64,000 nt of DNA from contig JAENZI010000003.1 of NCBI GenBank assembly GCA_016841365.1, positions 19,423-83,422 on the forward strand, read 5' to 3'. How positions within the stretch are numbered: position 1 is the stretch's first letter; the number at the start of each line of letters is the position of its first letter. The DNA comes from Anaerolineaceae bacterium (GTDB lineage Bacteria; Chloroflexota; Anaerolineae; Anaerolineales; Anaerolineaceae). The notes beneath the pieces were generated by a model. The model was not told where the DNA came from and searched no databases. It worked only from the letters and a program-made list of their open reading frames with translations. This document shows positions 16,040 through 58,605 of this stretch, in pieces. A program made the translations under genes and the position numbers.

Positions 16040-17785
16040 TTATTTATTGATCAAATCTCTCTCGACCAAAAAGTCATGACACGCATCAACCACTTCTTGC
16101 TGAGTAGAAAGTTGCAGCACTGTTTCAGCAAATTTGGCACATTCGTTGCGATGCAATTTTTGCATCACCTGCTTGATCAGCGGGACTGAAACCGGGGACA
16201 TACTGAATTCGTCCAGCCTAAAACCAACAAGAATAGGCGCTGCCATCGGTTCACCTGCCAGCTCCCCGCACAAGCCAACCCACTTTCCTTCAGCGTGGGC
16301 GCTATCAATCGTGAGCTTGATCAACCTGAGCACAGCCGGGTTTAATGGATTGGCGAGATGTGATACCTTTCTGTTCGTTCGGTCTACAGCCAATGTGTAC
16401 TGAGTCAAGTCATTGGTGCCGATACTGAAAAAGTCGACATGCTTTGCTAACCGGTCAGCCAGAAGTGCTGCTGATGGCACCTCAACCATGATCCCGAACT
16501 GTGCATCTTCCTTACAGGGTTTCCCTTCCGATCTCAAAGAATCCTTCGCTTCCGCCATTAATTGTTTGACAGCAAAGATTTCCTGCAACCCTGACACCAT
16601 CGGCACCATGATCCTCAAATCTACTTTTTCTATCTCCCCTGCCTGCAGCAGTGCTCTGAATTGAGCCATGAAAATATCCCGCATGCCATCTAACATGCGC
16701 ACGCCACGCCATCCCAGGAACGGATTCAACTCCTGCGGCAAATCCAAATAAGGGATGACCTTATCCCCGCCGATATCCAATGTCCGAACGACAAATGGAA
16801 GACCGGCATAATGTTTGAAGACCTCACAATAAGCCCGAACCTGCTCCTCTTCAGTCGGCAGCGAATCCCTTCCTAGGTATAAAAATTCGGTGCGGAACAA
16901 ACCAACACCTTCAGCACCATAGATAATGCCGAGCGGCGCATCTTCAACACCGCCAATATTCGCAACGACCTCCACCCGGTCTCCATCACCTGTCACAGCA
17001 GGTTTCTGGGCAGCATCACGGGCAAGCTCAAACTCAGCCTTTGTCTTTACCTCGCGGTTGATAAACATCTGTTGTGATTCTTCGCTGGGGTTTGCAATCA
17101 CAGAGCCCACATTACCATCAATAAGAAATGTGGTTCCTTCAGGGAAGTCTAACAATCTATCCCCCAACCCAACCACAGCAGGTAGACCAAATGATTTTGC
17201 CAGGATAGCCGTATGTGATGTCGGTCCGCCTTCTGCAGTGCAGAATCCCAACACTAGGTCGCGATCCAGGCTGGCTGTATCTGAAGGGGTAAGATCAATG
17301 CCAACAATAATTGAAGGCCTGATCAATTCTTTGCGCCCCAAACTTTTACCTAAAAGGTGTGCCAAAACCCGCTTGCCCACATCACGGATATCCACTGCGC
17401 GGCTGCTCAGGGTTGGGTCAGGAATAGATTCCATCATTGAAGCAAAATGGTTTACGGCGGTCATCCATGCTTTTTCAGCATTGATCCCGCTTTTGATATG
17501 CGTTTTTGCTTTACCCACCAATGCTTCATCCTGAAGAAACATTTGATGTGCCTCAAAAATCTCCGCCTCATCACTCTTGGCATTAGCTTTAACACGCGCT
17601 TTGATCAAACGCAGATCATTAAGGCTGATCTCAATCGCCCTATCTAAACGGGCAATTTCTTCATCAAAATCACTAATCTCAAATTCGGGCACATCCAAAT
17701 CTACTTGTTGAATAATGACGATTTCGCCGTGTGCCAAACCTGGTGCTGCGGGTATCCCATTTAACTCAATATGTTTGTTCTCCAT
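16040..17785 (-). CDS. ptsI: PTS enzyme I, phosphoenolpyruvate-protein phosphotransferase
   Basis: 581 residues, full family length. It autophosphorylates from PEP on His191 (GGPTSHTAIL) and passes the phosphate to HPr. The N-terminal HPr-binding helical domain (about 30-140), the swivelling phosphohistidine domain and the C-terminal PEP-binding barrel (FLYLGRDSLPTEEEQ, GTNDLTQYTLAVDR, GLCGELAGEP with the catalytic Cys) are all present. The AGAGGA site supports the start. It is encoded 3 kb from the EIIABC genes and about 10 kb from HPr, so this region holds a complete sugar PTS. Confidence 0.96.
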   Translation of the reverse strand: MENKHIELNGIPAAPGLAHGEIVIIQQVDLDVPEFEISDFDEEIARLDRAIEISLNDLRLIKARVKANAKSDEAEIFEAHQMFLQDEALVGKAKTHIKSGINAEKAWMTAVNHFASMMESIPDPTLSSRAVDIRDVGKRVLAHLLGKSLGRKELIRPSIIVGIDLTPSDTASLDRDLVLGFCTAEGGPTSHTAILAKSFGLPAVVGLGDRLLDFPEGTTFLIDGNVGSVIANPSEESQQMFINREVKTKAEFELARDAAQKPAVTGDGDRVEVVANIGGVEDAPLGIIYGAEGVGLFRTEFLYLGRDSLPTEEEQVRAYCEVFKHYAGLPFVVRTLDIGGDKVIPYLDLPQELNPFLGWRGVRMLDGMRDIFMAQFRALLQAGEIEKVDLRIMVPMVSGLQEIFAVKQLMAEAKDSLRSEGKPCKEDAQFGIMVEVPSAALLADRLAKHVDFFSIGTNDLTQYTLAVDRTNRKVSHLANPLNPAVLRLIKLTIDSAHAEGKWVGLCGELAGEPMAAPILVGFRLDEFSMSPVSVPLIKQVMQKLHRNECAKFAETVLQLSTQQEVVDACHDFLVERDLINK

Positions 17786-18878: not shown

Positions 18879-19436
18879 CTATACATATTTGCCATTGTTA
18901 AGTTTTTTAAACGCACGGGCAAATTTTTTGTTTGTAAAAAACAACGTCACCACCCCGCGTCGTTTTCTTTTTGGGGAAACCAATTTTTTAGCACTAACTG
19001 CTGTTTGCAATCTTTTTATTCTTGAAACCACATCCAGTGTATTGTTGCGTTTTGCATATAGATACATATATATTAAATAACCCGATAATATGGCCAGCCA
19101 TATGACACCCAAGACAATAAACAAAGTCCTGGAAAAATTTATATAGTTGGGTTGATTGAATATTGAATAGATCGAAAGAGCCATTACAATCGCACCCACT
19201 ATAAAAATTGGGACCAGGTTAACATACTGCTTCTTGGCGTCGTAACAAGCCTGGCAAACTGGGAACTTAACGATCACCTTTTGTGTATAGAACTTGTTAT
19301 AGATTGAATAATCAATGCGGTTTTCAGATGCGGGGTTTTCGCATGCTAAGCAAATATCTGGCTGTGCCAGGACTTTATCAAATTCGCATTGCACAGTCAT
19401 ACCCACACCTGGTTTTTTATTGCTTTTTCTACTCAC
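18879..19436 (-). CDS. small membrane protein with zinc-ribbon-like cysteines
   Basis: 185 residues. A cytosolic N-terminal part has a CxxC pair (CLAC) and a second pair (CQACYD) about 50 residues on, which together could bind one zinc ion. Two adjacent hydrophobic helices follow (FIVGAIVMALSIYSIF and LFIVLGVIWLAILSGYLIYMYL), then a basic tail (SPKRKRRG). The GTG start is well supported by AAGGAG six bases upstream. Function unknown. Confidence 0.7.
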   Translation of the reverse strand: MSRKSNKKPGVGMTVQCEFDKVLAQPDICLACENPASENRIDYSIYNKFYTQKVIVKFPVCQACYDAKKQYVNLVPIFIVGAIVMALSIYSIFNQPNYINFSRTLFIVLGVIWLAILSGYLIYMYLYAKRNNTLDVVSRIKRLQTAVSAKKLVSPKRKRRGVVTLFFTNKKFARAFKKLNNGKYV

Positions 19437-19649
19437 CCAATGCTCCTTCAGTTAGGCTATTTAGTCCATATTGGAGAGATGTTTTGTTGTAGTCAAATAT
19501 TCTCTCGCATTACAAACAAACTTGTAAAGCAATTTTACCTTTAGATTCATAAACAAAATCATGACTGAGAACGACCCAGTCATGATTTATCCTGGCCATT
19601 CGATCACCTGATTTTTTCCAGTAAATCACCAATAATAAACAGAAAAATT

Positions 19650-20570
19650 TTACAGGCCAGGGGCAATCATAAAGATGGCTTTGATCGGTTTAGCATTAAA
19701 GTTCATCAACCGATAAGGAACACCCTCAGGGATGAACATCGTATCTTCTTCGTTAACAATAAAGGCCTCTTCTGTCTCAGGCAGATACACTGTAACAGGA
19801 CCTTCTAAGACGAATAATGCACAATCACCCTTGTGCACATCAACGGGTGAAGTGCGCACACCTTTCCCACCTGCAGGCAGAATAAACTCACCCATGTGCA
19901 TTATATCGTTGCTGACAAAGAACTTCATTAGCATGGGATTGTCATAATCGTAAATATTTAGCAGTTTATCTTCTTCCCGAATCCTGTAGAAGAGTTTAGG
20001 GTCTTCCCTTCCTTCAGGGCCGGAAACAGGCCAGCGGCCAATATCGTCCGTCGTACCGATGTATGAAGGCTTCGTAAGACGTGGCAGTTCTTCATATTGG
20101 GCATTTTGCTTGCCTTTATAGGCTTTAATGGCTTCACCATGTGGATAATCATCCGGTGGAATTTTATCATCCCAGGCTTTCGGCGCAATCGCAAATAGGA
20201 TGCGCAAGATTTCATCTTCAAAATTAAAGGCTTTATGCCATGCTTCACGGGGCATCCAGATAGATTCGCCTTTATAGGCACGGATCACCTGACCGTTGAC
20301 TGCGTTCTGTTGCGTGAGTGTTCCATCCAACACGTAATACGTTTCATCACCGGGATGAAGGTCTGGCGGGTTGAATGATCCGCCTGGTGCCAGTTGATAT
20401 GTGCCGATAAAAATTTTATTGGTGCTGACGATAAATCGTGTCAGGTCGGCAAATTCGGGTGCTGCCGGTGGATAAATGCTGTCGATATACTCTTCTTTAC
20501 GGATATGCTTGGGTTTTAATTCTTCGGGTGGGTATGGTAAACGCCCCATGACTTCATTAACTTGAGTCAT
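19650..20570 (-). CDS. double cupin domain protein, probable sugar-related enzyme
   Basis: 306 residues with two cupin barrels. The first is near 60-150 (PPDLHPGDETYYVLDGT, MPREAWHKAFN) and the second near 210-300 (VDVHKGDCALFVLEGPV, FIPEGVPYRLMNF). The first keeps His/Glu/His metal ligands; the second is more degenerate. An AAGGAG site supports the start. It is last in the leftward PTS cluster, after EIIC and a 138-base gap with a branched hairpin. Cupins in such loci are often sugar isomerases, epimerases or anomer-handling enzymes; the reaction here is not known. Confidence 0.8.
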   Translation of the reverse strand: MTQVNEVMGRLPYPPEELKPKHIRKEEYIDSIYPPAAPEFADLTRFIVSTNKIFIGTYQLAPGGSFNPPDLHPGDETYYVLDGTLTQQNAVNGQVIRAYKGESIWMPREAWHKAFNFEDEILRILFAIAPKAWDDKIPPDDYPHGEAIKAYKGKQNAQYEELPRLTKPSYIGTTDDIGRWPVSGPEGREDPKLFYRIREEDKLLNIYDYDNPMLMKFFVSNDIMHMGEFILPAGGKGVRTSPVDVHKGDCALFVLEGPVTVYLPETEEAFIVNEEDTMFIPEGVPYRLMNFNAKPIKAIFMIAPGL

Positions 20571-20607
20571 CTACACTCCTTTTGGTTATCTTGGTGGTAT
20601 ATTAATT

Positions 20608-20671
20608 AAGGCTGGCTTCTTTGATACACGACTTGGGTCGATTTACACTGTCAAAGAAGTCAGCCTTTTTC
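20608..20671. other. large branched hairpin between EIIC and cupin genes
   Basis: Bases 20608-20624 pair with 20651-20667 over 17 positions. Read as plus-strand RNA this includes one G-U; read as minus-strand RNA, one A-C mismatch. The loop contains CGAC-TTGG-GTCG. On the plus strand the stem is followed by TTTTTCTT, a good terminator for antisense transcripts. On the minus strand it is followed by TTAATTAAT and may be partial termination or processing between EIIC and cupin. Confidence 0.5.
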
Positions 20672-20708
20672 TTGCCTTAGCGTTCTATATTGAGACTTTT
20701 TCTACTTT

Positions 20709-21761
20709 TTATGCAGCATTTTCTTCTAAGGAAAGAGCTTCCTCTTCAACTTCAGTAACTTTGGGTTTCAGCAAGAAGAGCATTCCCGCAGTAACGACGA
20801 TGGCAATTGCGAAGACAAACAGCCAGACAAGCGGCTTATTCGCAAGAGGAATAACAAACAGACCACCATGCGGGGCGGTCAATGTCAGTCCAAACACATA
20901 GGAAAGCGCCGCACCAACAGCGGAACCGACCATAATCGATGGCAGGACATGTAATGGATCAGCAGCAGCATATGGGATTGCAAATTCTGTGATCATTGCC
21001 AGACCGCCAATCACACAGCCACCAACACCATCACGCTCGACCTTTGTCCATTTATTCTTGAAGAGTACCAGGGCTAAAGCGATACCGGCTGGTGGGCTCA
21101 TGGAAGCGATGAAGTTGGCAGCCATGGGACCCCAATTGTTGTCTTCTGCTGCAGCAAGGGCAAAGGCATAAGCCGCTTTGTTAACTGGGCCGCCCATATC
21201 AAAGGCGAGCATAGCGCCTTGAACCAAGCCGAGGACCACACCGCCGGCAGTTGAAAGATTTGTCAAGAAGCGCAACATAGCTTCATTGAGCCATGCAACA
21301 GGTCCACCGAGAACATATGTCATACCGAGGCCAACGATAAATGTTCCCAACAGTGGGATCACGAGGACGGGCATAAGTGGTCTGACAACAGCTGGAACAT
21401 TCAGTTTCTTGATAAGTTTAACGACATAACCAGCTAACAAACCGCCAACAATACCGCCTAAAAAGCCGGAGCCTTGATTGTTTGCCAACATACCAGCGAT
21501 GAAACCAACTGCAATACCAGGCCGATCGGCAATGGAGTATGCGATGAAACCCGCTAAAGCAGGCACCATCAAGCCAAAGGCAACTTTACCCCAGTTGAAG
21601 ATGTCTGCCCCGAAACCGGGAGTTTCAAAAACAAAGATGCCGCCGATTGCAAAACCGATGGCAATCAGAATACCGCCCGGAACAACGAACGGAATCATAT
21701 ATGACACACCGGTCATCAAATGTTTCCGAATATCCCCAAAAAACGATTCTTTCTTTTCCAT
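20709..21761 (-). CDS. PTS fructose-family sugar transporter, EIIC membrane component
   Basis: 350 residues, about nine membrane helices. Typical fructose-type EIIC segments are present: MTGVSYMIPFVVPGGILIA, GFIAYSIADRPGIAVGFI, FDMGGPVNKAAYAFALA. EIIC forms the channel through which the sugar is brought in and phosphorylated. Here A, B and C are separate proteins, unlike the common fused FruA. AGGAGACAAAG precedes the start. A 213-base gap separates it from EIIB. The sugar cannot be read from EIIC; neighbouring genes point away from plain fructose, since no 1-phosphofructokinase is present. Confidence 0.92.
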   Translation of the reverse strand: MEKKESFFGDIRKHLMTGVSYMIPFVVPGGILIAIGFAIGGIFVFETPGFGADIFNWGKVAFGLMVPALAGFIAYSIADRPGIAVGFIAGMLANNQGSGFLGGIVGGLLAGYVVKLIKKLNVPAVVRPLMPVLVIPLLGTFIVGLGMTYVLGGPVAWLNEAMLRFLTNLSTAGGVVLGLVQGAMLAFDMGGPVNKAAYAFALAAAEDNNWGPMAANFIASMSPPAGIALALVLFKNKWTKVERDGVGGCVIGGLAMITEFAIPYAAADPLHVLPSIMVGSAVGAALSYVFGLTLTAPHGGLFVIPLANKPLVWLFVFAIAIVVTAGMLFLLKPKVTEVEEEALSLEENAA

Positions 21762-21974
21762 GTTCTTTGTCTCCTAAATGATTGAATGATTAAATGTTAT
21801 GACTGCAAATGTGCCGATGATGTCGATGGACTTTTTTAAATTATCCGATCAGAGTTCAATATCTTCCGGTACTGGATTGCAGCCCACGCCTCTTCTCGTA
21901 GAAGCGTGATTCAAGTGATGAAATTTATCTTATAGCGACCTCCTTGACTCTCGCGAGGATGAAGACTCTTACTT

Positions 21975-22286
21975 CTAACCTTCGAAATTCGCTTTTACCT
22001 CTTGTAAAACCTTTTTCGCGTTGCGAATGACTTCATTAGGACCTAAACTAACGGTTTTCTTCCCATTGAATCTTCCCTTATTACGAACGCCAACATCTAC
22101 TGCAAAAATGACCACATCAGCCGCTTCGATATCTTTTGCTGAAAGCTCGTTTTCGATGCCCATCGCACCCTGGATTTCGACTTTCACTTCGTCACCAGCT
22201 TCTTTACCAGCTTTTTTTAGCGCCTCCGCAGCCATGTATGAGTGGGCGATGCCGGTTGCGCATGCAGTGACAGCTACTATTTTCAT
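21975..22286 (-). CDS. PTS fructose-family EIIB component
   Basis: 103 residues. The phosphorylation site is Cys9 in TACATGIAHSYMAAEAL, the hallmark of fructose-type EIIB. It takes phosphate from EIIA and gives it to the sugar bound in EIIC. A strong AAGGAG site precedes the ATG, and EIIA lies 32 bases upstream in the same operon. Confidence 0.92.
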   Translation of the reverse strand: MKIVAVTACATGIAHSYMAAEALKKAGKEAGDEVKVEIQGAMGIENELSAKDIEAADVVIFAVDVGVRNKGRFNGKKTVSLGPNEVIRNAKKVLQEVKANFEG

Positions 22287-22318
22287 GATTTCTCAGCTCC
22301 TTCAACTACTTATGAATA

Positions 22319-22810
22319 TTATTGATCAAGCAGCGGTTCATACTGCTCAACGCTGCTTATAATATCATCATAATCTTTGGCTTTTCGAAGCTCATCCACA
22401 AATTCCGGGTATACCAGCAACCTTGCTAGCCGTGAGAGGATCCGGATGTAATCGTTACTGCTCATCTCACCGGGAATAGCCAGCATAAAGATGAGATCAA
22501 CCTCACCGCCGTCGTCATCTGTGTGGTAATAAAATCCTTCATCACACCGGCAAAAAGCAATTGCTGTTTTTCTTACAGTGCAGCTTTTTCCATGCGGTAT
22601 GGCAATCCCTTCACCCATATAAGTTGGACCCAGCGATTCCCTCTCATAAATCGCCTGTAAAAATTCTTCCTTCGAACCAATGGCACCAACATCAAACAAC
22701 ATCGCAATCATGTGATGAAATAAATCATCCTTGCTGTCTTGAGGTGCCAGCATCAGGTCCACGGTCTCCGGTTTGATGATCTCCGAAAAGGTTACTTTTT
22801 TTGTTTCCAT
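22319..22810 (-). CDS. PTS fructose/mannitol-type EIIA component
   Basis: 163 residues. The active His is His73 in GEGIAIPHGKS, and the surrounding pattern is that of PtsN/fructose-type EIIA. It receives phosphate from HPr. It lies 16 bases after the aldolase gene and directly before EIIB, so aldolase-EIIA-EIIB-EIIC read as one transcript. Confidence 0.92.
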   Translation of the reverse strand: METKKVTFSEIIKPETVDLMLAPQDSKDDLFHHMIAMLFDVGAIGSKEEFLQAIYERESLGPTYMGEGIAIPHGKSCTVRKTAIAFCRCDEGFYYHTDDDGGEVDLIFMLAIPGEMSSNDYIRILSRLARLLVYPEFVDELRKAKDYDDIISSVEQYEPLLDQ

Positions 22811-22826
22811 TTAATTCCAGAATGTC

Positions 22827-23621
22827 TTACTTTACAAATGTCAGGGCTTCTTCGACTGATGCACCCTTGTGAACGATCGCTTTAATGGCATCCAGCATCT
22901 TCAAAGGCTCACGGTACTGCCAAAGGTTTCTACCAACTGCGCAGCCACGGCCGCCAGCATCCATCACGTCTTTCATCACCTGCAAAAAATCCTTCGGATC
23001 GTCGCTGATTGGGCCACCAGAAAGCATGACGGGAACCGGGCAGGATTCTGTTACTTCTGTAAACCCTTCAACCGTACCTGTGTAGTGTGATTTAACAATA
23101 TCTGCACCAAGCTCTGCGCCAATCCTCACAGCCCATTTGACATGTTCGACAGCTTCGTTGTTTTCAAAACCAGTTGGATACATAATTGCCATCAAGGGCA
23201 TGCCCAAATTGTCGCAATCTTCAGCAACTTTGGCTAATCCCTTCAGCATATCGCTTGTTTTCTCAGCACCAACCATGACATGCATTGATACGCCTGATGC
23301 ACCAAGCTGTAAGGCATGCATCACACTGTCTGAAAGCATGAAGTAATCGGGTTCCGGCCCCATCTCCACGCAGGTATCAATGGAAAGCATAAAGGGAATG
23401 TGGTGTTTAACAAAACTCGGGGAAACCAATTTTGCGATACCATTCGGCATAAAGAACGTATCTGGTTTCCCCGCAGCGAGCATCTCGACCGTCGCTTTTG
23501 GATCGACAATTCCCGGAATAGGACCTAAAACCGCACCATGGTCCATGGCAACAATGATTGCATTATCGCTTTCCGGATTAAACATTTGGGATAAACGAAT
23601 TTTTTTACCAATACTGGACAT
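22827..23621 (-). CDS. class I aldolase of the DhnA/FbaB/LsrF family
   Basis: 264 residues, TIM-barrel Schiff-base aldolase. The catalytic Lys is Lys177 in LGADIVKSHYTG; AMDHGA near residue 27 and LSGGP near 200 (phosphate binding) are also typical. Family members cleave or form fructose-1,6-bisphosphate, ADH (archaeal aromatic pathway) or phospho-AI-2 products. As first gene of the PTS operon it most likely cleaves or forms a sugar phosphate from the imported substrate. An AAGGAG site supports the start. It is divergent from the DeoR regulator. Confidence 0.88.
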   Translation of the reverse strand: MSSIGKKIRLSQMFNPESDNAIIVAMDHGAVLGPIPGIVDPKATVEMLAAGKPDTFFMPNGIAKLVSPSFVKHHIPFMLSIDTCVEMGPEPDYFMLSDSVMHALQLGASGVSMHVMVGAEKTSDMLKGLAKVAEDCDNLGMPLMAIMYPTGFENNEAVEHVKWAVRIGAELGADIVKSHYTGTVEGFTEVTESCPVPVMLSGGPISDDPKDFLQVMKDVMDAGGRGCAVGRNLWQYREPLKMLDAIKAIVHKGASVEEALTFVK

Positions 23622-23879
23622 ATGAATCGTCTCCTTATATATGATTTTTCCAAATTAAGCCCATCATAGCAGAAACAATTATATTTGTCAATATATAAGC
23701 ACTATCAATTATTGAATTATAATTATTATATGTAGATATTGATTGAATGTACACAAAATATGATATAATCAGGTAGAAAATGCTAATATAATAAGATTTT
23801 GCATACCTTTTCCTGAACAGGCGGGGTAAATTGATTTTAGTAACTTGGTGATAAGATATTGCAAATCGAAAGGTCGGAC
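23622..23879. promoter_or_regulatory. divergent promoter region of the sugar locus
   Basis: AT-rich 258-base region between the aldolase (leftward) and the DeoR regulator (rightward). A TATAAT at 23764-23769 with TTGATT at 23739-23744 (19-base spacer) is a candidate rightward promoter. AT-rich near-palindromes around 23714-23730 (AATTATAATTATTATA) could be a regulator site or leftward -10. DeoR proteins normally bind such intergenic regions. Confidence 0.45.
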
Positions 23880-24689
23880 ATGAAGAGAAATAAATTAGTA
23901 TTCCGTGAAGAAAGGCTTTCCCAAATTCATCAGTTAATCCAAACGAACACCAGCATGACTGTCGCGGAACTCGCTGAGCTTTTTGATATCAGTGAATCAA
24001 CTGTCAGGCTTGATTTGGCAGAGCTCGAGAAGAAGGACCTGATTACTCGCACACACGGCGGCGCGATCAGCAAACAGAATGGGATCGGCTCAAGCTACGT
24101 TCAATCGGTAAGCATTCAAAAACGCGTCAATTACTTAAAAGAAGAAAAGGACGCGATTGGTAGGAAAGCCGCCTCACTGATAAACGATGGGGATACGATT
24201 CTAATCGATGGCGGCAGCACGACGCCCTATGTAATCAAACATCTCGGCGCAAAGAAGAACCTGACCATCATAACGAACTCACTGCTTCTCATTCAAGATC
24301 TCATCAATAATCCCAACATCAATCTATTCATTTTAGGCGGGCTTGCCTTCAGTAAACACGGGGTCACTGTTGGCGATCTGACCAACAACTCGCTATCCTA
24401 TTTTTATCCTAACAAAACAATTATCGGCATTGATGGTTTTTCAGTTGAGCGGGGTATTATGGCAGCCGATGCCGCCGTACCCGCTGTTGCGGCAGTCAAA
24501 GCGGAAATGGTCCGCACCAGCAATCAACTGATTATCGTTAGCGACCACACAAAATACAATAAAATTTGCCCAATGCCCATCGCCCCCATTGAAGCAGTTG
24601 ATATCCTTGTCACAGATTCTAAACTGCCGCAAAAAGCAAGGCAAGCGATCAGCGCAAAAGGGCCCAAGGTGTTGATCGCAGATGAATAA
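23880..24689 (+). CDS. DeoR/GlpR-family transcriptional regulator
   Basis: About 269 residues. The N-terminal winged helix-turn-helix is classic (RLSQIHQLIQTN...TVAELAELFDISESTVRLDLAEL, then THGGAI). The C-terminal sensor domain has the sugar-phosphate-binding features of the family (LIDGGSTTPYVIKHL, TNSLLLIQDL, GIDGFS, DHTKYN). The ATG at 23880 has AAAGG at normal spacing; the open frame extends seven codons further but from a TTG. It probably represses both the PTS-aldolase operon and the kinase operon until a phosphorylated intermediate accumulates. Confidence 0.92.
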   Translation: MKRNKLVFREERLSQIHQLIQTNTSMTVAELAELFDISESTVRLDLAELEKKDLITRTHGGAISKQNGIGSSYVQSVSIQKRVNYLKEEKDAIGRKAASLINDGDTILIDGGSTTPYVIKHLGAKKNLTIITNSLLLIQDLINNPNINLFILGGLAFSKHGVTVGDLTNNSLSYFYPNKTIIGIDGFSVERGIMAADAAVPAVAAVKAEMVRTSNQLIIVSDHTKYNKICPMPIAPIEAVDILVTDSKLPQKARQAISAKGPKVLIADE

Positions 24690-24824
24690 TCAACAATGAT
24701 GCTCTCTGAAACAATCGAAGGCAGAGAATAATCAGAAAATTCAATATTGTTTTTTGATTTTTGTGCTGTCATATCAATATTATTTGCTTGAACTGTCACA
24801 ATATCTTAACAGAATGGAGAAAAA

Positions 24825-25829
24825 ATGCCAGTCATTAAAAAGGTCATCAATGACCCAAAACAGGTTGCAAAAGAATCCTTAGAAGGCCTCGTCCTTGCAT
24901 ATCACGGAAAAGTAAGAATATTGGAAGATTGCTCGAGTATCGTCAGAACTGACTTGCCCCAAGGCAAAGTGGGTTTGCTGGTCGGTGGTGGTAGCGGCCA
25001 CGAACCTCTTTTTGCTGGTTTCGTCGGAGAGAATTTAGCAGATGGTTCGGTCAACGGGAATGTTTTTGCAGCGCCCAGCCCGGACAAAATTCTCTGTGCA
25101 ACTCAAGCAATTGATCAGGGCAAAGGCGTTTTATATCTCTACGGCAATTATGCCGGCGACAATATGAATTTCGATATTGCAGCAGAATTAGCTGCTGACC
25201 TTGACATCGAAACCCGCACCGTACGGATTTGGGACGATGTTGCTTCAGCACCCCCTGAAAGAATTGAGGATCGGCGCGGCATTGCGGGTGACCTATTTGT
25301 GATTAAGGTTGCAGGTGCAGCCGCCGCATCAGTTTCAACACTTGATGATCTCTTCCGCATCACCACAAAAGCACGCGACTACACCCGCTCGATAGGGGTC
25401 GCCCTATCACCTGGATCAATCCCAGAAACCGGTGAATACACTTTCGAATTAGGCCCAGACGAAATAGAAATCGGCATGGGATTGCATGGTGAACAAGGCG
25501 TTTCACGCGGGAAACTGATACCCGCCGACGAATTGGTTGATTCGATGATTGACCGCATCCTTGAGGATATGCCTCTTGAACAAAACGATAAGGTCTGCGT
25601 ATTGATCAACAACCTTGGGGCGTCAACGATGATGGAATTGTTGATCGTAAACCGCAGGGTGATGCAGCGTTTTTCAGATGACGGTATCAAAGTCCACGAT
25701 ACGCTCATTGGTTCATTTTGCACTTCTCAAGAAATGGCAGGGTTCTCAATCTCTTTGCTGAAACTTGATGATGAACTAGAGAAGTATTATGATACGCCAG
25801 CCGATTCATTTGCTTTGAAAACGAGGTAA
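24825..25829 (+). CDS. DhaK-type dihydroxyacetone/tetrulose kinase, substrate-binding subunit
   Basis: 334 residues. His221 in MGLHGEQG corresponds to the His that binds the carbonyl of the substrate covalently as a hemiaminal. GGGSGHEPLFAGFVG and GNYAGDNMNFD are typical. Together with the DhaL subunit downstream it phosphorylates a short-chain ketose. No DhaM (PTS phosphotransfer subunit) is present, so ATP is the likely donor. DhaK-type enzymes also act on erythrulose and apulose; given the two isomerases downstream, a tetrulose is likelier here than dihydroxyacetone. GGAGAAAAA precedes the start. Confidence 0.88.
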   Translation: MPVIKKVINDPKQVAKESLEGLVLAYHGKVRILEDCSSIVRTDLPQGKVGLLVGGGSGHEPLFAGFVGENLADGSVNGNVFAAPSPDKILCATQAIDQGKGVLYLYGNYAGDNMNFDIAAELAADLDIETRTVRIWDDVASAPPERIEDRRGIAGDLFVIKVAGAAAASVSTLDDLFRITTKARDYTRSIGVALSPGSIPETGEYTFELGPDEIEIGMGLHGEQGVSRGKLIPADELVDSMIDRILEDMPLEQNDKVCVLINNLGASTMMELLIVNRRVMQRFSDDGIKVHDTLIGSFCTSQEMAGFSISLLKLDDELEKYYDTPADSFALKTR

Positions 25830-25832
25830 CAC

Positions 25833-26474
25833 ATGAGTGTGACAGAACTCACATTAGAACAAACACAGCAGATGATGCTCTATGTCAGCCAAAAAATGCA
25901 AGAAAGTAAAGATCTCCTCTCTCACGCCGACCAGGTGATCGGCGATGGAGACCACGGCATTGGCATGGCACGTGGATTTGAAAGTGTTGAAGAAAAGCTA
26001 AGCCATTCGTCTTATTTAAATTGCGGCGAGCTCTTTAAATCCGTCGGGATGACACTCCTTTCTACGATTGGCGGAGCGGCCGGTGCTGTCTTTGGTTCTC
26101 TATTTATGGGCATGGGGAAAGGGCTTTCTGATGCCCAGGTGATAAACGAGACGAACCTATCTGTCGCACTTCAAGCCGGCTTGGAGTTAATCCAAAAAAG
26201 AGGCGGCGCTAAAGTGGGCGATAAAACAATGATCGACGCCTTATCACCTGCCGTGGATGCTGCCAGTGATGGGAAGGATTTATCGATGGGTGAGTTTTTG
26301 GACAAAATCTCACTTGCTGCTGAAGAAGGCAAAGAGAAAACCAAAGACATGGTATCAAAGATCGGCAAATCAAAAACCCAAGGTGAACGCTCACTCGGCT
26401 TTCCCGATCCCGGTGCGATATCGGTAACCCTGATCTTTAAATTTATGCACGAATATGTCCGTTCTATCCAGTAG
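25833..26474 (+). CDS. DhaL-type kinase subunit, nucleotide binding
   Basis: 213 residues. The Mg-ADP/ATP-binding aspartates are in IGDGDHGIGMARG near residue 33, with GGAAGAVFGSLFMGMG and DKTMIDALSPAVDA as further family segments. It starts four bases after the DhaK stop, so translation is coupled. In family enzymes DhaL holds the nucleotide and phosphorylates the ketose bound to DhaK. Confidence 0.88.
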   Translation: MSVTELTLEQTQQMMLYVSQKMQESKDLLSHADQVIGDGDHGIGMARGFESVEEKLSHSSYLNCGELFKSVGMTLLSTIGGAAGAVFGSLFMGMGKGLSDAQVINETNLSVALQAGLELIQKRGGAKVGDKTMIDALSPAVDAASDGKDLSMGEFLDKISLAAEEGKEKTKDMVSKIGKSKTQGERSLGFPDPGAISVTLIFKFMHEYVRSIQ

Positions 26475-26496
26475 ATGATTTAGAAAGGTTTTACCA

Positions 26497-26961
26497 ATGA
26501 AGATCAGTATCGGTTGTGATGAAATTGCAGTATCAATGAAAGAAGAAATTAAAAAGTTTCTTGCGGAGCAAACAGAAGTTGAGATAGAAGAAGTCATCGA
26601 TTTGGGTGTACATTCATCAGAACCTGTTGATTATCCCGATATTGCAGAAAAAGTTGCGTTAACCATCAAAAACAATGAAGCCGATCGCGGCATCTTGATT
26701 TGTGGAACAGGTATTGGTATGGCACTTGTTGCGAATAAAGTCCCAGGTGTTCGTGCGGCGCAGGTTTACGACCCTTATACTGCGGAAAGATCTCGTAAAA
26801 GCAATAATGCTCAAATTATGACAATGGGTGCTTTGACCACGGGGATAGAAACAGCAAAATACCTGGTTAGCATCTGGCTAAAGTGCGATTTCGCCGGCGG
26901 TCGATCGACTCGAAAAGTAGAAAAGATCAACGCGATTGATCAAAAATATCATAAAGATTAA
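26497..26961 (+). CDS. RpiB/LacAB-family isomerase, EryI-like
   Basis: 154 residues. The catalytic Cys is Cys69 in ILICGTGIGMALVANKVPG. The usual DH near the N-terminus is DE (residues 8-9), and the His of the AxxHNDAN segment, which opens the furanose ring in RpiB, is Ser102 (SRKSNNAQIMTMG). The SNNAQI form matches, from memory, the RpiB-like D-erythrulose-4-phosphate isomerases of erythritol catabolism, whose substrate cannot form a ring. It probably interconverts D-erythrulose 4-phosphate and D-erythrose 4-phosphate. It lies between the kinase genes and the TPI-like gene. Confidence 0.82.
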   Translation: MKISIGCDEIAVSMKEEIKKFLAEQTEVEIEEVIDLGVHSSEPVDYPDIAEKVALTIKNNEADRGILICGTGIGMALVANKVPGVRAAQVYDPYTAERSRKSNNAQIMTMGALTTGIETAKYLVSIWLKCDFAGGRSTRKVEKINAIDQKYHKD

Positions 26962-26988
26962 GATGCTTTATTCGGATAGGAGAAAACA

Positions 26989-27765
26989 ATGAAACGATTA
27001 TGGGTCGGCACCGGCTGGAAAATGAATCATCTCATGGAAGAGTCCCTGTCCTATGCTGCCCGACTCAGGGAATTTGTGGATGAAGAAAAACCCGATGTCA
27101 ACGTTTTTATCTGTGTGCCCTTTACAGTCCTACATGCCGTTTCCGAGTTGTTAACTGGATCAGAAGTTAATCTTGCATCCCAAAACGTCCACTGGCTTGA
27201 TCGCGGCGCTGCCACAGGTGAAATTTCCTCTTTGATGGTAAAAGATGCCGGTGCGAACATGGTTGAAATCGGCCATTCGGAGCGCAGGCAATTCTTTGGT
27301 GAAAATGATGTCGATGTCAATAAAAAAATGAAGGCTGCTTTTTCGCATCATCTAAGACCTATTCTTTGCATCGGTGAAACAAGCCAGGATAAAGCGTATG
27401 GCGTTGGGAAGGAAACCCTCGATATACAATTAAAGATCGCCTTGCACGGTTTGACACCTGAGCAAATCAGTCAGACACTGGTTGCTTATGAGCCCGTTTG
27501 GGCAATTGGTGACAGCGGAAAACCTGCCGCACCAGAGTATGTGAACGAGATCCATGCCCACTTATCATCAACATTATGCAAGATTGCCGGAGAAACGCAC
27601 GGAAAACAAGTCCCCATCATTTATGGCGGCAGCGTCAATCCAGAGAATGCTTCATCTCTGATTTCGCAGCCCAACGTGGACGGACTCTTCATTGGCCGCT
27701 CTGCCTGGCAGGTTGAAGGGTTTATCAACCTTATTCAAATCGTTGAAAGCCACACAGAAAAATAA
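26989..27765 (+). CDS. triosephosphate isomerase-like protein, EryH-like
   Basis: 258 residues. Catalytic residues of TPI are kept: Lys11 (GWKMN), His96 (EIGHSERR) and Glu168 (AYEPVWAIG), plus YGGSVNP. Family-distinguishing details differ from glycolytic TPI: GTGWKMN instead of GNWKMN, QNVHWLDRGAATGEIS, and a C-terminal RSAWQVEGF. From memory these match the EryH group, which interconverts L-erythrulose 1-phosphate and D-erythrulose 4-phosphate. A role as an ordinary TPI serving the aldolase or DhaKL cannot be excluded. AGGAGAAAACA precedes the ATG. Confidence 0.85.
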   Translation: MKRLWVGTGWKMNHLMEESLSYAARLREFVDEEKPDVNVFICVPFTVLHAVSELLTGSEVNLASQNVHWLDRGAATGEISSLMVKDAGANMVEIGHSERRQFFGENDVDVNKKMKAAFSHHLRPILCIGETSQDKAYGVGKETLDIQLKIALHGLTPEQISQTLVAYEPVWAIGDSGKPAAPEYVNEIHAHLSSTLCKIAGETHGKQVPIIYGGSVNPENASSLISQPNVDGLFIGRSAWQVEGFINLIQIVESHTEK

Positions 27766-27840
27766 ATAGCACTTTATTATTTATTAATCGGCAAGATTCG
27801 GATAAAATAAACAAACTAATTTTTTAAAAGAAGGAGAAAT

Positions 27841-28113
27841 ATGACCTCAACCCTACAAATCAAAGTTGGCCACCCGGAGGGTTTGCACGCCCGCCCTGCC
27901 GCCATTTTCGTCAAGACTGCAAGTCAGTTTAAGTCGGATATCAATGTCAAAAATCTGACTGAACAGAATGGGCCAGTCAACGCAAAAAGCATTTTGAGCG
28001 TGCTAACACTTGGCGTGATGAAGGACCATGACGTTGAGATCGTTGCTGAAGGCGAAGATTCAGATGCAGCGATTCAAACCTTTAAAGACCTGATTGAAAA
28101 TAATTTTGAGTAA
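27841..28113 (+). CDS. ptsH: PTS phosphocarrier protein HPr
   Basis: 90 residues. His16 in GLHARPAA accepts phosphate from enzyme I. The regulatory Ser is present (Ser50, in NAKSILSV), the form phosphorylated by HPr kinase in Firmicutes; no HPr kinase gene is in the window. AAGGAGAAAT precedes the ATG. It is last in the rightward kinase operon, 75 bases after the TPI-like gene, and is followed by a strong terminator. Confidence 0.93.
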   Translation: MTSTLQIKVGHPEGLHARPAAIFVKTASQFKSDINVKNLTEQNGPVNAKSILSVLTLGVMKDHDVEIVAEGEDSDAAIQTFKDLIENNFE

Positions 28114-54710: not shown

Positions 54711-56360
54711 ATGAAAGCTTTTAAAATATTGGCGTGCATAATTATGATTAGTCTGTTATTTTCTGCTTCTCCTGCTGCAGCACAGGAGCCCGATCCCCCA
54801 CCTGACGAGATCGCACCTGAAGTTGCTACCGAAGGAGAGCTGGACATGTCTGTCCTGGAGGGGCTGGGTGTTGACATTAAGTTTGAAGATGTCCCCCAAA
54901 TCAACACCTGGGATGCCCCTGCACCCGACCTGCGTGAAACCAAATTACCCGATACCCTTGCTATCATGGATGAACCCCAGACCCCCTTCGAAGGTCTGCT
55001 GGATGTAGAACCTCTCCCCGAGGAAATCCCGGCGCATCCCCAGCCCAGTGGACCCGGCATTGATCTGACCCCGCCCGGGTTTGAGCGGGGCGAGGTGACC
55101 CCATTGATTGATGAAACCAACCGCGTGGTTTATCCCGAGTCAGGAACGATCGGTGTTGCCATTACAACTACCTACGATGAATATGACCCCGATATCGCCC
55201 ACGGCGGCGGCTATTATATGATCGTGTATACCGTATCAGGAGACGTGTTTGCCCGTGCCTACGATAACAACGGAAAATTTTATGCCGGCGGGTTAGTTTA
55301 TAATGGCAGTTCAAATTGCTATCACCCAACCATCGCCTACGATTCCTTCACCCGCAACTTCATCGTCACCTTTGAGTATGACTTTGCTAATGCCGGCACA
55401 GATTATGACATTTATGCCATCGCCGTTTCACCTCACACCGGGCCACTTGGCTCTGTTTCTGCCATTTCTCAAGCCATCGGCATGGAAGATGACCCCACCA
55501 TCGCCTGCAATACCCGCATCTCCACAGGCGGATGCTTGGTGGCATTTGAATATCTCAGTGGGAACCCCATCCAGGGCAAATTTATCTACACCTACAGCGG
55601 CGGCATTGCATCCTTTAGCGCCACACGCTACCCTCTCGATTCTTATGTTGGCATCAATCCCCACCTCGCCTTCGGCAAGGGTACTGGCACCTACCTGCTG
55701 ATCTATGATTACTATTGGGGAGACCCTTACTACACCTATTTCGTCATCGAAACCCATCTCTACGATGTCTACCATTCACCCCAAAATGTGCATGGCGGCA
55801 CCTACCTTTCCTTCTCAGGGATGGTTTTCAGTCATTCCAAAACCAATCTCGGCGCAGCCTATGACCCCTGCCTGCAAAAATACATGGTCATGTGGCGCTA
55901 TTATTACGATGGCATCTGGTATGATGACATCCGTATCACCATCATGCATCCCACGGCCTCGACAGAATACGGCTCCGGATGGCTGGTAGCCAACACCGAA
56001 AGTTCATATACCGGTGATATTGCCTTTGTCACCGACAGTCATGCTGCCCCGGTCTGCGGGGTTGGCGACCGCTTCGTCGCCACCTACAAGAATTCCGGCG
56101 ACGGCGTGTATGTGACCGACATCTGGGGCAGCGGCACCGTCAGCAGCCCGGTTTACTCCTGGAATGGTTCATCCTACCATTATGAAGCCGCCACGGACAT
56201 GTCAGGCTTGATCGGTTACGATCCCATGATTGCCAGCGGCGCCAGGGGTAAGGTGATGGTCACCTGGAACTGGCTCTTTACATCCACATCCGATTATGAT
56301 GTCTGGGCACGCATGATCCGTGTCTTCTGGACGGACTTCCTGCCCATCATGGCGAAGTAA
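54711..56360 (+). CDS. secreted beta-propeller protein with prodomain, copy 1
   Basis: 549 residues. A signal peptide ends at SPAAAQ. Residues 25-145 are an acidic Pro-rich prodomain (NTWDAPAPDLRETKLP, TPFEGLLDVEPLPEEIPAHP). From about 150 to 535 seven related segments can be counted, each of the type PxIAYxxxxxxYLVxYEY (YDPDIAHGGGYYMIVY, YHPTIAYDSFTRNFIVTFEYD, DDPTIACNTRISTGGCLVAFEYL, INPHLAFGKGTGTYLLIYDYY, LGAAYDPCLQKYMVMWRYY, GDIAFVTDSHAAPVCG...FVATY, YDPMIASGARGKVMVTWNW). This suggests a seven-bladed propeller. The end is WTDFLPIMAK. Function unknown. Confidence 0.82.
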   Translation: MKAFKILACIIMISLLFSASPAAAQEPDPPPDEIAPEVATEGELDMSVLEGLGVDIKFEDVPQINTWDAPAPDLRETKLPDTLAIMDEPQTPFEGLLDVEPLPEEIPAHPQPSGPGIDLTPPGFERGEVTPLIDETNRVVYPESGTIGVAITTTYDEYDPDIAHGGGYYMIVYTVSGDVFARAYDNNGKFYAGGLVYNGSSNCYHPTIAYDSFTRNFIVTFEYDFANAGTDYDIYAIAVSPHTGPLGSVSAISQAIGMEDDPTIACNTRISTGGCLVAFEYLSGNPIQGKFIYTYSGGIASFSATRYPLDSYVGINPHLAFGKGTGTYLLIYDYYWGDPYYTYFVIETHLYDVYHSPQNVHGGTYLSFSGMVFSHSKTNLGAAYDPCLQKYMVMWRYYYDGIWYDDIRITIMHPTASTEYGSGWLVANTESSYTGDIAFVTDSHAAPVCGVGDRFVATYKNSGDGVYVTDIWGSGTVSSPVYSWNGSSYHYEAATDMSGLIGYDPMIASGARGKVMVTWNWLFTSTSDYDVWARMIRVFWTDFLPIMAK

Positions 56361-56385
56361 ATAAAACATTTTTTCACCCCTATCC

Positions 56386-56414
56386 AACCCCCGTGTGAGT
56401 ACTCGCGGGGGTTT
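56386..56414 (+). terminator. intrinsic terminator after propeller copy 1
   Basis: AACCCCCG (56386-56393) pairs with CGGGGGTT (56406-56413), with GAGTACTC in the loop and a short T-run. Confidence 0.75.
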
Positions 56415-56563
56415 GTACATTTTATCCTAGCTTACTGTTTCAATTAGAAATAATTCATCAATTCAATCACACGCTAAACAAAAGTTCGCAGCAATCACGC
56501 ACAATATACTTGATGGAAAATTTTATTTTTAACGAACATTTTTGCTTATTTTAAACGCTTTTG

Positions 56564-56592
56564 TTGACTCCCGCGTTTATTTTTTATATAAT
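56564..56592 (+). promoter_or_regulatory. promoter 3 of the secreted-protein series
   Basis: TTGACT at 56564-56569, 17-base spacer, TATAAT at 56587-56592 followed by ATTAAT. The preceding ACGCTTTTG is shared with promoter 4. Confidence 0.82.
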
Positions 56593-56658
56593 ATTAATAA
56601 TGAGAAATATTATGGGGGTGTTCTTGTAAATACATTTAAATATAGATTGGAGAATCCC

Positions 56659-58308
56659 ATGAAGGTCCTTAAATTGTTTGTTTGTATGCTGTTGATCAGT
56701 TTGTTATTCTCTGCCTCCCCCGCAGCTGCCCAGGAACCTCCTCCCCCGGAAGAAGAAATCCAGGAAATCGCTATCGAAGGCGAGCTTGACCTATCTGCCC
56801 TGGAAGGGTTAGGTGTGGACGTCAAGTTTGAGGACGCGCCTCAGATCAACACCTGGGATGCCCCTGCACCTGACCTGCGTGAAACTAAATTACCCGACAC
56901 CCTTGCCATCACGGAAGAACCTCAGACCCCCTTCGAAGGGCTTCTCGATGTTGCACCCCTGTCAGAGGAAATCCCGGCGCATCCGCTACCCAGCGGCGAG
57001 GGGATTGACCTGACCCCGCCCGGTTTTGAACGGGACGAAGTGACCCCATTGATTGATGAATCCAACCGCATGGTTTACCCCGAGTCAGGTTTGATTGGTG
57101 TAGCCATCACAACCACCTACGATGAAGATTACCCCGATATCGCCCACGGCGGCGGCTACTACATGATCGTTTACACCGTTTCCGGCAATGTTTATGCCCG
57201 TGTTTACGACAACAACGGCAAATACTATACTGGCGGGTTGGTGTATGATGGTTATCGTGATTGCTCAAATCCAACGATCGCCTATGATGCCTTCAAACGC
57301 ATATTTGTCGTCGCGTTTGAGTATGACTTTGGCGGTACAGATACCGATTATGACATTTATGCTATCGCCGTTTCACCTCACAGCGGGCCACTTGGCTCAG
57401 TTGCTGGCATCTCCTCAGCCATCGGCATGGAAGATGACCCCACCATCGCCTGCAACACGCGCATCTCCACAGGCGGATGCCTGGTGGCTTTTGAATACCT
57501 GAGCGGCAACCCCATCCATGGCAAATTCATCTACACCTACACCGGCGGCATTTCCAGCTATAGTGCCACAGCATACCCGCTCGATGTGTATGATGGGATC
57601 AATCCCTATCTAGCATTCGGCAAAGGCACCGGCACCTACCTGCTGACCTATGATTACTATTTTGGAGATCCATACTATGAGTACGCCCCAGTATATAATC
57701 ACTTATATGATGTATATGTTTCAGGGGACAAATATGTTCACTCAGGTTTCTATCCAAGTTATACAGGAATGAGTTTATATCAACCAAAATATACAATCGC
57801 TGCAGCCTACGATCCCTGTTTACAAAAATACGTGCTCATGTGGCGCTATTATTATGACAGCACCTGGCGTTACGACATTCGAGTTCACGTAATCAGCCCC
57901 ACCAGTGGCTCAACATATGGTTCTGGCTGGCTGAACGCAACAACAGCCGATTCCTACGCTGGAGACATCGCCTTTGTCACTGACAGCCATGCTGCCCCTG
58001 TTTGTGGGCCAGGCGACCGCTTTGTCGCCACTTATAAAAATGCCGGCGACGGCGTCTATGTCACCGACATCTGGGGCACTGGCACCGTCAGCAGCCCGGT
58101 TTATGTCTGGAATGGCTCAGCCTACCATTATGAAGCCGCCTCGGACATGTCAGGCTTGATCGGTTACTATCCCGTCATCGCCAGCGGCGCCAGGGGTAAG
58201 GTGATGATCGCTTGGAACTGGTATTTCACATCCACCCTTGATGATGACGTTTGGGCACGGATGATCCGGGTCTTCTGGACGGACTTCTTGCCCATTATGG
58301 CGAAGTAA
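56659..58308 (+). CDS. secreted beta-propeller protein with prodomain, copy 2
   Basis: 549 residues, identical in length to copy 1 and collinear with it. Signal peptide (LLISLLFSASPAAAQ), acidic prodomain, seven propeller-like segments and the tail WTDFLPIMAK are all kept. The ATG at 56659 follows TTGGAGAATCCC; the frame upstream runs through the promoter and leader. A segment near codons 345-380 (VYVSGDKYVHSGFYPSYTG) is AT-rich, matches copy 3 almost base for base and differs from copy 1. Confidence 0.82.
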   Translation: MKVLKLFVCMLLISLLFSASPAAAQEPPPPEEEIQEIAIEGELDLSALEGLGVDVKFEDAPQINTWDAPAPDLRETKLPDTLAITEEPQTPFEGLLDVAPLSEEIPAHPLPSGEGIDLTPPGFERDEVTPLIDESNRMVYPESGLIGVAITTTYDEDYPDIAHGGGYYMIVYTVSGNVYARVYDNNGKYYTGGLVYDGYRDCSNPTIAYDAFKRIFVVAFEYDFGGTDTDYDIYAIAVSPHSGPLGSVAGISSAIGMEDDPTIACNTRISTGGCLVAFEYLSGNPIHGKFIYTYTGGISSYSATAYPLDVYDGINPYLAFGKGTGTYLLTYDYYFGDPYYEYAPVYNHLYDVYVSGDKYVHSGFYPSYTGMSLYQPKYTIAAAYDPCLQKYVLMWRYYYDSTWRYDIRVHVISPTSGSTYGSGWLNATTADSYAGDIAFVTDSHAAPVCGPGDRFVATYKNAGDGVYVTDIWGTGTVSSPVYVWNGSAYHYEAASDMSGLIGYYPVIASGARGKVMIAWNWYFTSTLDDDVWARMIRVFWTDFLPIMAK

Positions 58309-58330
58309 ACAAAACATTTTTCACCCCTTT

Positions 58331-58371
58331 CCAACCCCCGGTGGTCCGCCGCCGGGGGTTGGTGATTTTTT
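58331..58371 (+). terminator. intrinsic terminator after propeller copy 2
   Basis: CCAACCCCCGG (58331-58341) pairs with CCGGGGGTTGG (58352-58362), followed by TTTTTT from 58366. Confidence 0.88.
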
Positions 58372-58510
58372 AGCAAGCATACAGTTATATCATGAAACAG
58401 TTTATGTTTTTATCCACACGCTAAACAGAATCTAGCAGCAAACACATATAATATCCTTGATGGAAAATTTAAATTTAAACGAATAATTTTTCTTATTTTA
58501 AACGCTTTTG

Positions 58511-58539
58511 TTGACTCCAACGGAAATTTTTTATATAAT
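58511..58539 (+). promoter_or_regulatory. promoter 4 of the secreted-protein series
   Basis: TTGACT at 58511-58516, 17-base spacer, TATAAT at 58534-58539 followed by ATTAAC. Confidence 0.82.
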
Positions 58540-58605
58540 ATTAACAATAAGTCAAGTTATGGGGGAGTTCTTGAAAAAACATGTAAATATAGATTGGAGA
58601 ATCCC

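Follow-up and report, generated by a model that had tools for sequence, protein, structure and literature searches.

A divergent locus in a 64,000-nucleotide stretch of DNA from an Anaerolineaceae sediment bacterium (assembly GCA_016841365.1, contig JAENZI010000003.1) joins a fructose-family phosphotransferase system (PTS) and a class I aldolase to genes predicted to act on tetrulose phosphates. The whole stretch is termed the window, and all coordinates are window positions. The individual parts of the locus are known; their conserved combination is new. At its core is a pair of isomerases, one of the TIM family and one of the RpiB family. As judged from sequence, this pair is the signature of the conversion of L-erythrulose-1-phosphate to D-erythrulose-4-phosphate and then to D-erythrose-4-phosphate, a series of reactions known from tetritol catabolism (PMC10733421; PMC12780249). 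As the TIM-family protein resembles LerI, the L-erythrulose-1-phosphate isomerase, and the RpiB is of a tetrulose-linked type, the locus is likely to encode a route from L-erythrulose through these two phosphates to erythrose-4-phosphate.

The two gene sets stand back to back on opposite strands around 23.6-23.9 kb. The minus strand carries, in order, the class I aldolase, EIIA, EIIB, EIIC and a double cupin, followed by a terminator-like hairpin. The plus strand carries a DeoR-family regulator, DhaK, DhaL, the RpiB- and TIM-family isomerases and HPr. Every gene that an initial annotation of this DNA had named in the divergent locus was found in its place. The regulator (23859-24689, plus strand), identified by family match, lies between the two halves, and its orthologs of 54-56% identity occupy the same position.

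The TIM-family isomerase (26989-27765, plus strand) provides the clearest part of the assignment. Its closest PDB sequence is the L-erythrulose-1-phosphate isomerase 11ef, at 230 bits versus 191 for the best triose-phosphate isomerase (TPI). The loops are altered, with GTGWKMN in place of the GNWKMN of TPI (Asn11 to Gly), IGDSGKPA in place of IGTGKTA and GRSAW in place of GGASL. Three active-site places follow the LerI pattern (loop 6 IGxxGxPA; loop 8 GRSAW), as in LerI and the TIMs linked to oiaX. In the tree, the protein groups with LerI and with the TIM-family proteins of rhizobial oiaX loci (91/90), and the glycolytic TPIs form a group of their own (100/97). A separate glycolytic TPI is encoded elsewhere in the genome, beside GAPDH and PGK (gap-pgk). 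Because of this second copy, the LerI-type loops and the proximity to 11ef, the protein is classed as LerI-like and not as a glycolytic TPI. The initial annotation had described it as an EryH-like TPI, and the grouping with ordinary triose-phosphate isomerases that would speak against such a description did not appear, as the protein grouped with L-erythrulose-1-phosphate isomerase instead.

The RpiB-family isomerase (26497-26961, plus strand) lies within a 16-row clade of RpiBs from DhaK/LerI-type (tetrulose) loci, supported at 99/95 and away from the canonical RpiBs. It carries the motifs SNNAQIMTMG and GGRS, and two canonical RpiBs are encoded elsewhere in the genome. The earlier description of this protein as EryI-like is in line with its position among the RpiBs of DhaK/tetrulose loci and outside the ordinary isomerases. 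Under a housekeeping interpretation, the TIM would be a TPI, the RpiB a ribose-5-phosphate isomerase and DhaKL a dihydroxyacetone kinase, all serving ordinary dihydroxyacetone and pentose metabolism. Both isomerases do pass generic curated models, but ordinary TPI and RpiB functions were rejected on the trees, the loop changes and the canonical copies elsewhere in the genome, and this interpretation as a whole is very improbable.

The kinase consists of the substrate-binding subunit DhaK (24825-25829, plus strand; Dak1 378 bits), a proposed L-erythrulose kinase with its catalytic His retained, and the nucleotide-binding subunit DhaL (25833-26474, plus strand; TIGR02365 186 bits versus a cut-off of 138). 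The two genes are adjacent in every complete copy of the locus. The nearest sampled relative of DhaK outside the Anaerolineae is a Pasteurella DhaK (56% identity), whose cluster also holds an RpiB, a TIM, a transaldolase and a transketolase; E. coli DhaK is 41% identical. As no match to TIGR02364, the model for DhaM, was found in the genome with positive controls detected, DhaKL probably depends on adenosine triphosphate (ATP). Two more DhaK-DhaL pairs are present in the genome (L083:6000-7669 and L083:9276-10920), beside branched-chain-type ABC transporter genes, and these pairs may be the ones that deal with dihydroxyacetone itself.

HPr (27841-28113, plus strand; PF00381) had been counted as part of the module, which was not borne out. 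It is the only HPr in the genome and is missing from the loci of relatives, and therefore belongs to the general PTS machinery, its location here being incidental, rather than to the conserved block. A PTS-driven DhaKLM complex with HPr as a piece of a split DhaM found no support on the same grounds, together with the absence of a detectable DhaM. A further general PTS component, enzyme I, was read from its translation alone at 16040-17785 on the minus strand.

Conservation was followed by scanning bacterial and archaeal genomes with the window aldolase. The layout of aldolase-EIIA-EIIB-EIIC-cupin facing DeoR-DhaK-DhaL-RpiB-TIM is also found in Pelolinea submarina MO-CFX1 and in the metagenome-assembled genomes Ch43 and AS27yjCOA_56; in the list of open reading frames used, the EIIB of Pelolinea did not appear. 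A 4.5 kb contig of UBA7929 holds the aldolase/PTS half. Among 147 genomes of the family, five have a close aldolase (at least 69% identity), and these five and no others have a close TIM (at least 55%). If aldolase and TIM were independent, the probability of this co-occurrence would be 1.9e-9, an optimistic figure since the block shares common descent. Descent or transfer of the block as one unit is probable, and the figure therefore says only that the halves travel together. The locus is not a chance neighbourhood. The initial annotation had drawn attention to DhaKL joined to a PTS and an aldolase with no polyol dehydrogenase, and this proved to be a conserved arrangement, both in the loci of relatives and in the five-genome co-occurrence. 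Neither a polyol dehydrogenase nor a polyol kinase is present in the window locus or its conserved copies, the rest of the genome not having been surveyed for polyol dehydrogenases. The aldolase operon has a sigma-70-like promoter (TTGACA-17-TATGAT; 23663-23691, minus strand) that matches the consensus at 11/12 positions, and a promoter of the TTGACA-17-TA type stands at equal distance in all five copies. This conserved core promoter was all that turned up when a shared DeoR operator was sought.

The first gene of the PTS operon encodes a DhnA-type class I (Schiff-base) aldolase of the DeoC/LacD family (22827-23621, minus strand). Its best PDB-sequence match is MJ0400, at 203 bits, followed by an archaeal fructose-bisphosphate (FBP) aldolase and LsrF. 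When the protein is aligned to MJ0400 and to the archaeal enzyme, the Schiff-base Lys, the catalytic residues Asp and Tyr and the SGG and GRN phosphate loops prove to be kept. Against TIGR01949 (2-amino-3,7-dideoxy-D-threo-hept-6-ulosonate synthase) the protein scores 235 bits versus a cut-off of 299, and it passes the looser model PRK07226. A role in LsrF-like autoinducer metabolism was rejected, as LsrF scored 101 bits versus 203 for MJ0400. From the conserved lysine, the phosphate loops typical of enzymes using dihydroxyacetone phosphate (DHAP) and the chemistry of the family, the enzyme probably splits a C1-phosphorylated ketose to DHAP and an aldehyde. The initial annotation had the aldolase free a short ketose for DhaKL. 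This part of it gained no support, as a DHAP-type site would give DHAP and an aldehyde, and an extra aldehyde-to-ketose step would therefore be needed before DhaKL.

The ketose-1-phosphate would be supplied by the fructose-type EII. Its components are EIIA (22319-22810; PTS_EIIA_2 125 bits; TIGR00848 102.3 with a cut-off of 103.5), EIIB (21975-22286; TIGR00829 98 bits versus a cut-off of 77) and EIIC (20709-21761; TIGR01427 334 bits versus a cut-off of 158), all on the minus strand. EIIC has orthologs of 75-86% identity, and its match to the fructose-specific TIGR01427 does not imply its substrate. The absence of a dehydrogenase from the locus is consistent with a substrate that is a ketose from the outset.

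A fructose-type EII together with a DHAP-type class I aldolase is also what a pathway resembling fructolysis would contain. Here the PTS would make fructose-1-phosphate (or the 1-phosphate of tagatose, sorbose or psicose), the aldolase would release DHAP and glyceraldehyde, DhaKL would fill the triokinase role known from human liver, and the TIM would complete triose metabolism. The human triokinase, of the DhaK/L family, does act on D-glyceraldehyde and dihydroxyacetone (PMC6429413). Such a pathway leaves a TIM and an RpiB of tetrulose-phosphate type unexplained in a genome that already has the ordinary TPI and RpiB, and it is considered unlikely. A literature search brought up nothing on point for a bacterial fructose-1-phosphate aldolase with a triokinase, or for a PTS acting on erythrulose, and one on heptulose catabolism contributed nothing to the present account.

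Relatives of the aldolase give a wider view of its use. Some close relatives occur with a fructose-type PTS, a Zn-dehydrogenase and mannitol-1-phosphate-dehydrogenase-like and SIS proteins, and others with a galactitol/ascorbate-type PTS (by inspection of the sequence) and dehydrogenases, in both cases without tetrulose genes. More distant relatives, judged from translations, adjoin Zn-dehydrogenases together with either an FGGY-like kinase or a PTS of mannose type. The protein thus appears to be a sugar-phosphate aldolase linked to PTSs, with each locus dealing with its aldehyde product in a different way. Because it is found with PTSs in the absence of tetrulose genes, it need not be specific to tetruloses.

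Two other types of aldolase-PTS locus were observed. The first, conserved in the same family (L108, L141, L142, L143 and the short contig L140, which holds part of it), contains the aldolase, a Zn-dehydrogenase, a mannitol-1-phosphate-dehydrogenase-like protein, EIIABC, DeoR and a SIS-domain protein; in Ornatilinea the mannitol-1-phosphate-dehydrogenase-like protein has a C_GCAxxG_C_C tail. The second (L144:9013-13848 and L145:6307-11147) runs EIIA, aldolase, EIIB, galactitol/ascorbate-like EIIC, Zn-dehydrogenase and a short-chain dehydrogenase/reductase (SDR), and both genomes that have it also carry a locus of the window type.

The occurrence of aldolase and PTS without tetrulose genes raises the prospect of two pathways under one regulator, in which the PTS and aldolase would serve one sugar and DhaKL, LerI and DerI would serve erythrulose, the two being induced jointly since both compounds share a source. 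LerI/DerI pairs without a PTS or an aldolase, in G171 and on rhizobial plasmids, are compatible with such a division. In the complete copies of this clade, however, the halves are always together, and the block has no separate erythrulose transporter, so this division is judged decidedly unlikely.

The last gene of the aldolase/PTS operon encodes a double cupin of 306 amino acids (19650-20570, minus strand), in which Cupin_2 was matched twice. Orthologs of 82-84% identity occupy the same place in three relatives. In our reading of the alignment, the first domain keeps a plausible metal site and the second looks degenerate. No PDB sequence match was found, and KduI and IolB were not among its Pfam matches. 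A structure model (mean predicted local distance difference test, pLDDT, of 69) matched bicupins of many functions, namely ureidoglycine aminohydrolase-like proteins, quercetinase, oxalate decarboxylase, BacB and, lower, KduI. The fold was therefore set aside as a guide to function, as no reaction follows from such generic matches. The double cupin may be a sugar isomerase, and no other protein of the block is a candidate for the aldehyde-to-ketose step.

The terminator-like hairpin, with a 14-pair stem, lies just past the cupin gene (19556-19588, minus strand) and is a consensus match only. Beyond it, at 18879-19436 on the minus strand, is a gene for a protein of about 180 amino acids with CxxC-type motifs and probable membrane stretches. 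A CxxC protein of this size also follows the cupin in all three complete relatives (L104:14042-14578, L106:14037-14570 and L107:13979-14518); Pfam gave no match for the window and Pelolinea copies. Elsewhere in the window, at 54711-60249, are three adjacent and closely similar genes for secreted proteins of about 550 amino acids each, which are tandem paralogues.

A full route that explains every gene of the block can be proposed. The fructose-family PTS would import a ketose and phosphorylate it at C1. Going by its active-site residues, the class I aldolase would then cleave the ketose-1-phosphate to DHAP, which would enter glycolysis, and an unphosphorylated aldehyde. More speculatively, this aldehyde would be a tetrose, which the double cupin would isomerise to L-erythrulose; a tetrose product would in turn make the PTS sugar a seven-carbon ketose. 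DhaKL, probably with ATP, is the likely enzyme for phosphorylation of L-erythrulose to L-erythrulose-1-phosphate. In the two best-supported steps, the LerI-like TIM would form D-erythrulose-4-phosphate and the DerI-like RpiB would convert this to D-erythrose-4-phosphate. The product would be consumed by transketolase and transaldolase, a transketolase and a transaldolase being present in the genome, and one DeoR regulator would govern the whole pathway. The initial proposal that a PTS and an aldolase feed a tetrulose module is thus retained as regards the tetrulose isomerases and the conserved coupling of the two halves, and lacks support as regards a ketose made by the aldolase. The isomerase core alone is rated higher than the full route, which is put forward tentatively, at somewhat below an even chance; the imported sugar and the step that joins the two halves are guesses.

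A number of points weigh against this proposal. The TIM passes the curated TPI model NF000722, at 329 bits versus a cut-off of 293, although the model is broad. The RpiB likewise satisfies the model of ribose-5-phosphate isomerase B, and its closest PDB sequences are ribose-5-phosphate isomerases. Because its 144 bits are far below the 240 demanded by NF051858, the rhizobial model for DerI (D-erythrulose-4-phosphate isomerase), it is placed only in the wider tetrulose-linked (DerI-like) group and not under that model. DhaK, while clear as a Dak1 domain, is under the cut-offs of its NCBIfam models (TIGR02363, 355 versus 406 bits), and the DhaK tree gives no split between tetrulose and triose kinases. 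Neither fold nor sequence comparison assigns a reaction to the cupin, and the L configuration required for L-erythrulose-1-phosphate is not simply derived from the common D-heptuloses. Both the tetrose step and the L configuration are conjecture, and the roles of all these proteins are predicted ones.

In an alternative scheme, the PTS would take up L-erythrulose itself and phosphorylate it at C1. This would give the LerI substrate directly and leave the two isomerases to finish, the shortest path to the two best-supported enzymes. L-erythrulose has the same C1-C3 pattern as D-fructose, so by our reasoning a fructose-type EII could accept it, and the transporters, kinases and PTSs of tetroses are still unknown according to a 2025 study (PMC12780249). 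DhaKL would then catch free erythrulose or dihydroxyacetone, and the aldolase would have a secondary activity, for example the condensation of DHAP with erythrose-4-phosphate. This makes DhaKL redundant and gives no clear role to the aldolase, whose gene heads the PTS operon, and a related aldolase sits with PTSs in the absence of tetrulose genes. Direct uptake of erythrulose is accordingly held to be rather unlikely.

Tetrulose-phosphate catabolism has so far been traced to polyols and, by annotation, to apionate-type acids. The full route proposed here would add one fed by a PTS and an aldolase, and the locus would give candidate genes for the use of tetroses or heptuloses; for tetroses, transporters and PTSs are still missing according to that study. 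As Pelolinea submarina is a cultured carrier of the locus, the proposal can be tested.

Of the systems described, the L-threitol/erythritol pathway of Mycolicibacterium smegmatis (EltD, LerK, LerI, DerI; PMC10733421) shares a kinase, the TIM-family LerI, the RpiB-family DerI and the end product erythrose-4-phosphate. It differs in starting with a polyol dehydrogenase, and no PTS, aldolase or cupin is known to belong to it. The erythritol pathway of Brucella (EryH, EryI; PMC12780249, PMC12542623) has both isomerase families, but erythritol is phosphorylated and then oxidised, a 3-epimerase is needed and there is no DhaKL, PTS or aldolase.

The Listeria and Enterococcus dhaM-dhaK-dhaL-TIM-rpiB clusters (L111, L115) likewise bring together DhaK (45% identical), DhaL, TIM and RpiB (53-57% identical), along with a transketolase and a protein annotated as fructose-6-phosphate aldolase. 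Unlike the window locus, they contain DhaM, have a protein of the FSA/transaldolase family in place of the DhnA aldolase, and lack EIIABC and cupin. Their TIMs form a separate deep branch of the tree. A 923-amino acid protein at L128:3975-6746, adjoining an RpiB and a transketolase, appears to be a fusion, its first part being a transaldolase and the rest resembling a second sugar-phosphate enzyme.

The rhizobial oiaX loci (plasmids p42f and pRA_T24_2) have a TIM (about 45% identical) and an RpiB side by side, with DhaK further along; ABC transport and a decarboxylase stand in place of the PTS and aldolase. OiaX, which is annotated in this way, is taken to be a 3-oxo-isoapionate-4-phosphate decarboxylase and would presumably provide L-erythrulose-1-phosphate without a polyol dehydrogenase. 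The initial annotation had held that known routes start from polyol dehydrogenases, absent here. None is indeed found in the locus, but these enzymes are not the sole known source of L-erythrulose-1-phosphate, as the rhizobial loci with their TIM/RpiB pair indicate.

Within the Anaerolineaceae, the aldolase-PTS loci of Ornatilinea apprima, G320, G298 and G401 share the aldolase (58-63%), EIIC (57-61%) and DeoR, while a Zn-dehydrogenase and mannitol-1-phosphate-dehydrogenase-like and SIS proteins replace the cupin, DhaL, RpiB and LerI. Another cluster occurs twice in a distant genome of the Anaerolineae (L099:4562-10098 and L100:4470-9989). It combines an ABC sugar transporter and a Gfo/Idh-like protein with a large protein resembling GH38 alpha-mannosidase (checked against Pfam in L099), and also has a Zn-dehydrogenase, a LerI-like TIM and a DerI-like RpiB. 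Its composition suggests a tetritol or tetrulose released from a mannoside.

A parallel in design is the synthetic erythrulose monophosphate (EuMP) cycle (PMC10733421), in which a DHAP aldolase, LerI and DerI likewise form one module. This cycle was engineered in E. coli with formaldehyde as second substrate, and its core design has no PTS or DhaKL. A natural counterpart, in which the aldolase joins DHAP and formaldehyde to L-erythrulose-1-phosphate, the isomerases proceed to erythrose-4-phosphate and DhaKL supplies DHAP, is highly improbable here, since the operon also encodes a PTS and the same aldolase is found next to PTSs where the isomerases are missing. The authors of the cycle asked for a search for DHAP aldolases co-occurring with both isomerases (PMC10733421), and the locus offers such a natural set of a DHAP-type aldolase with LerI- and DerI-like enzymes.

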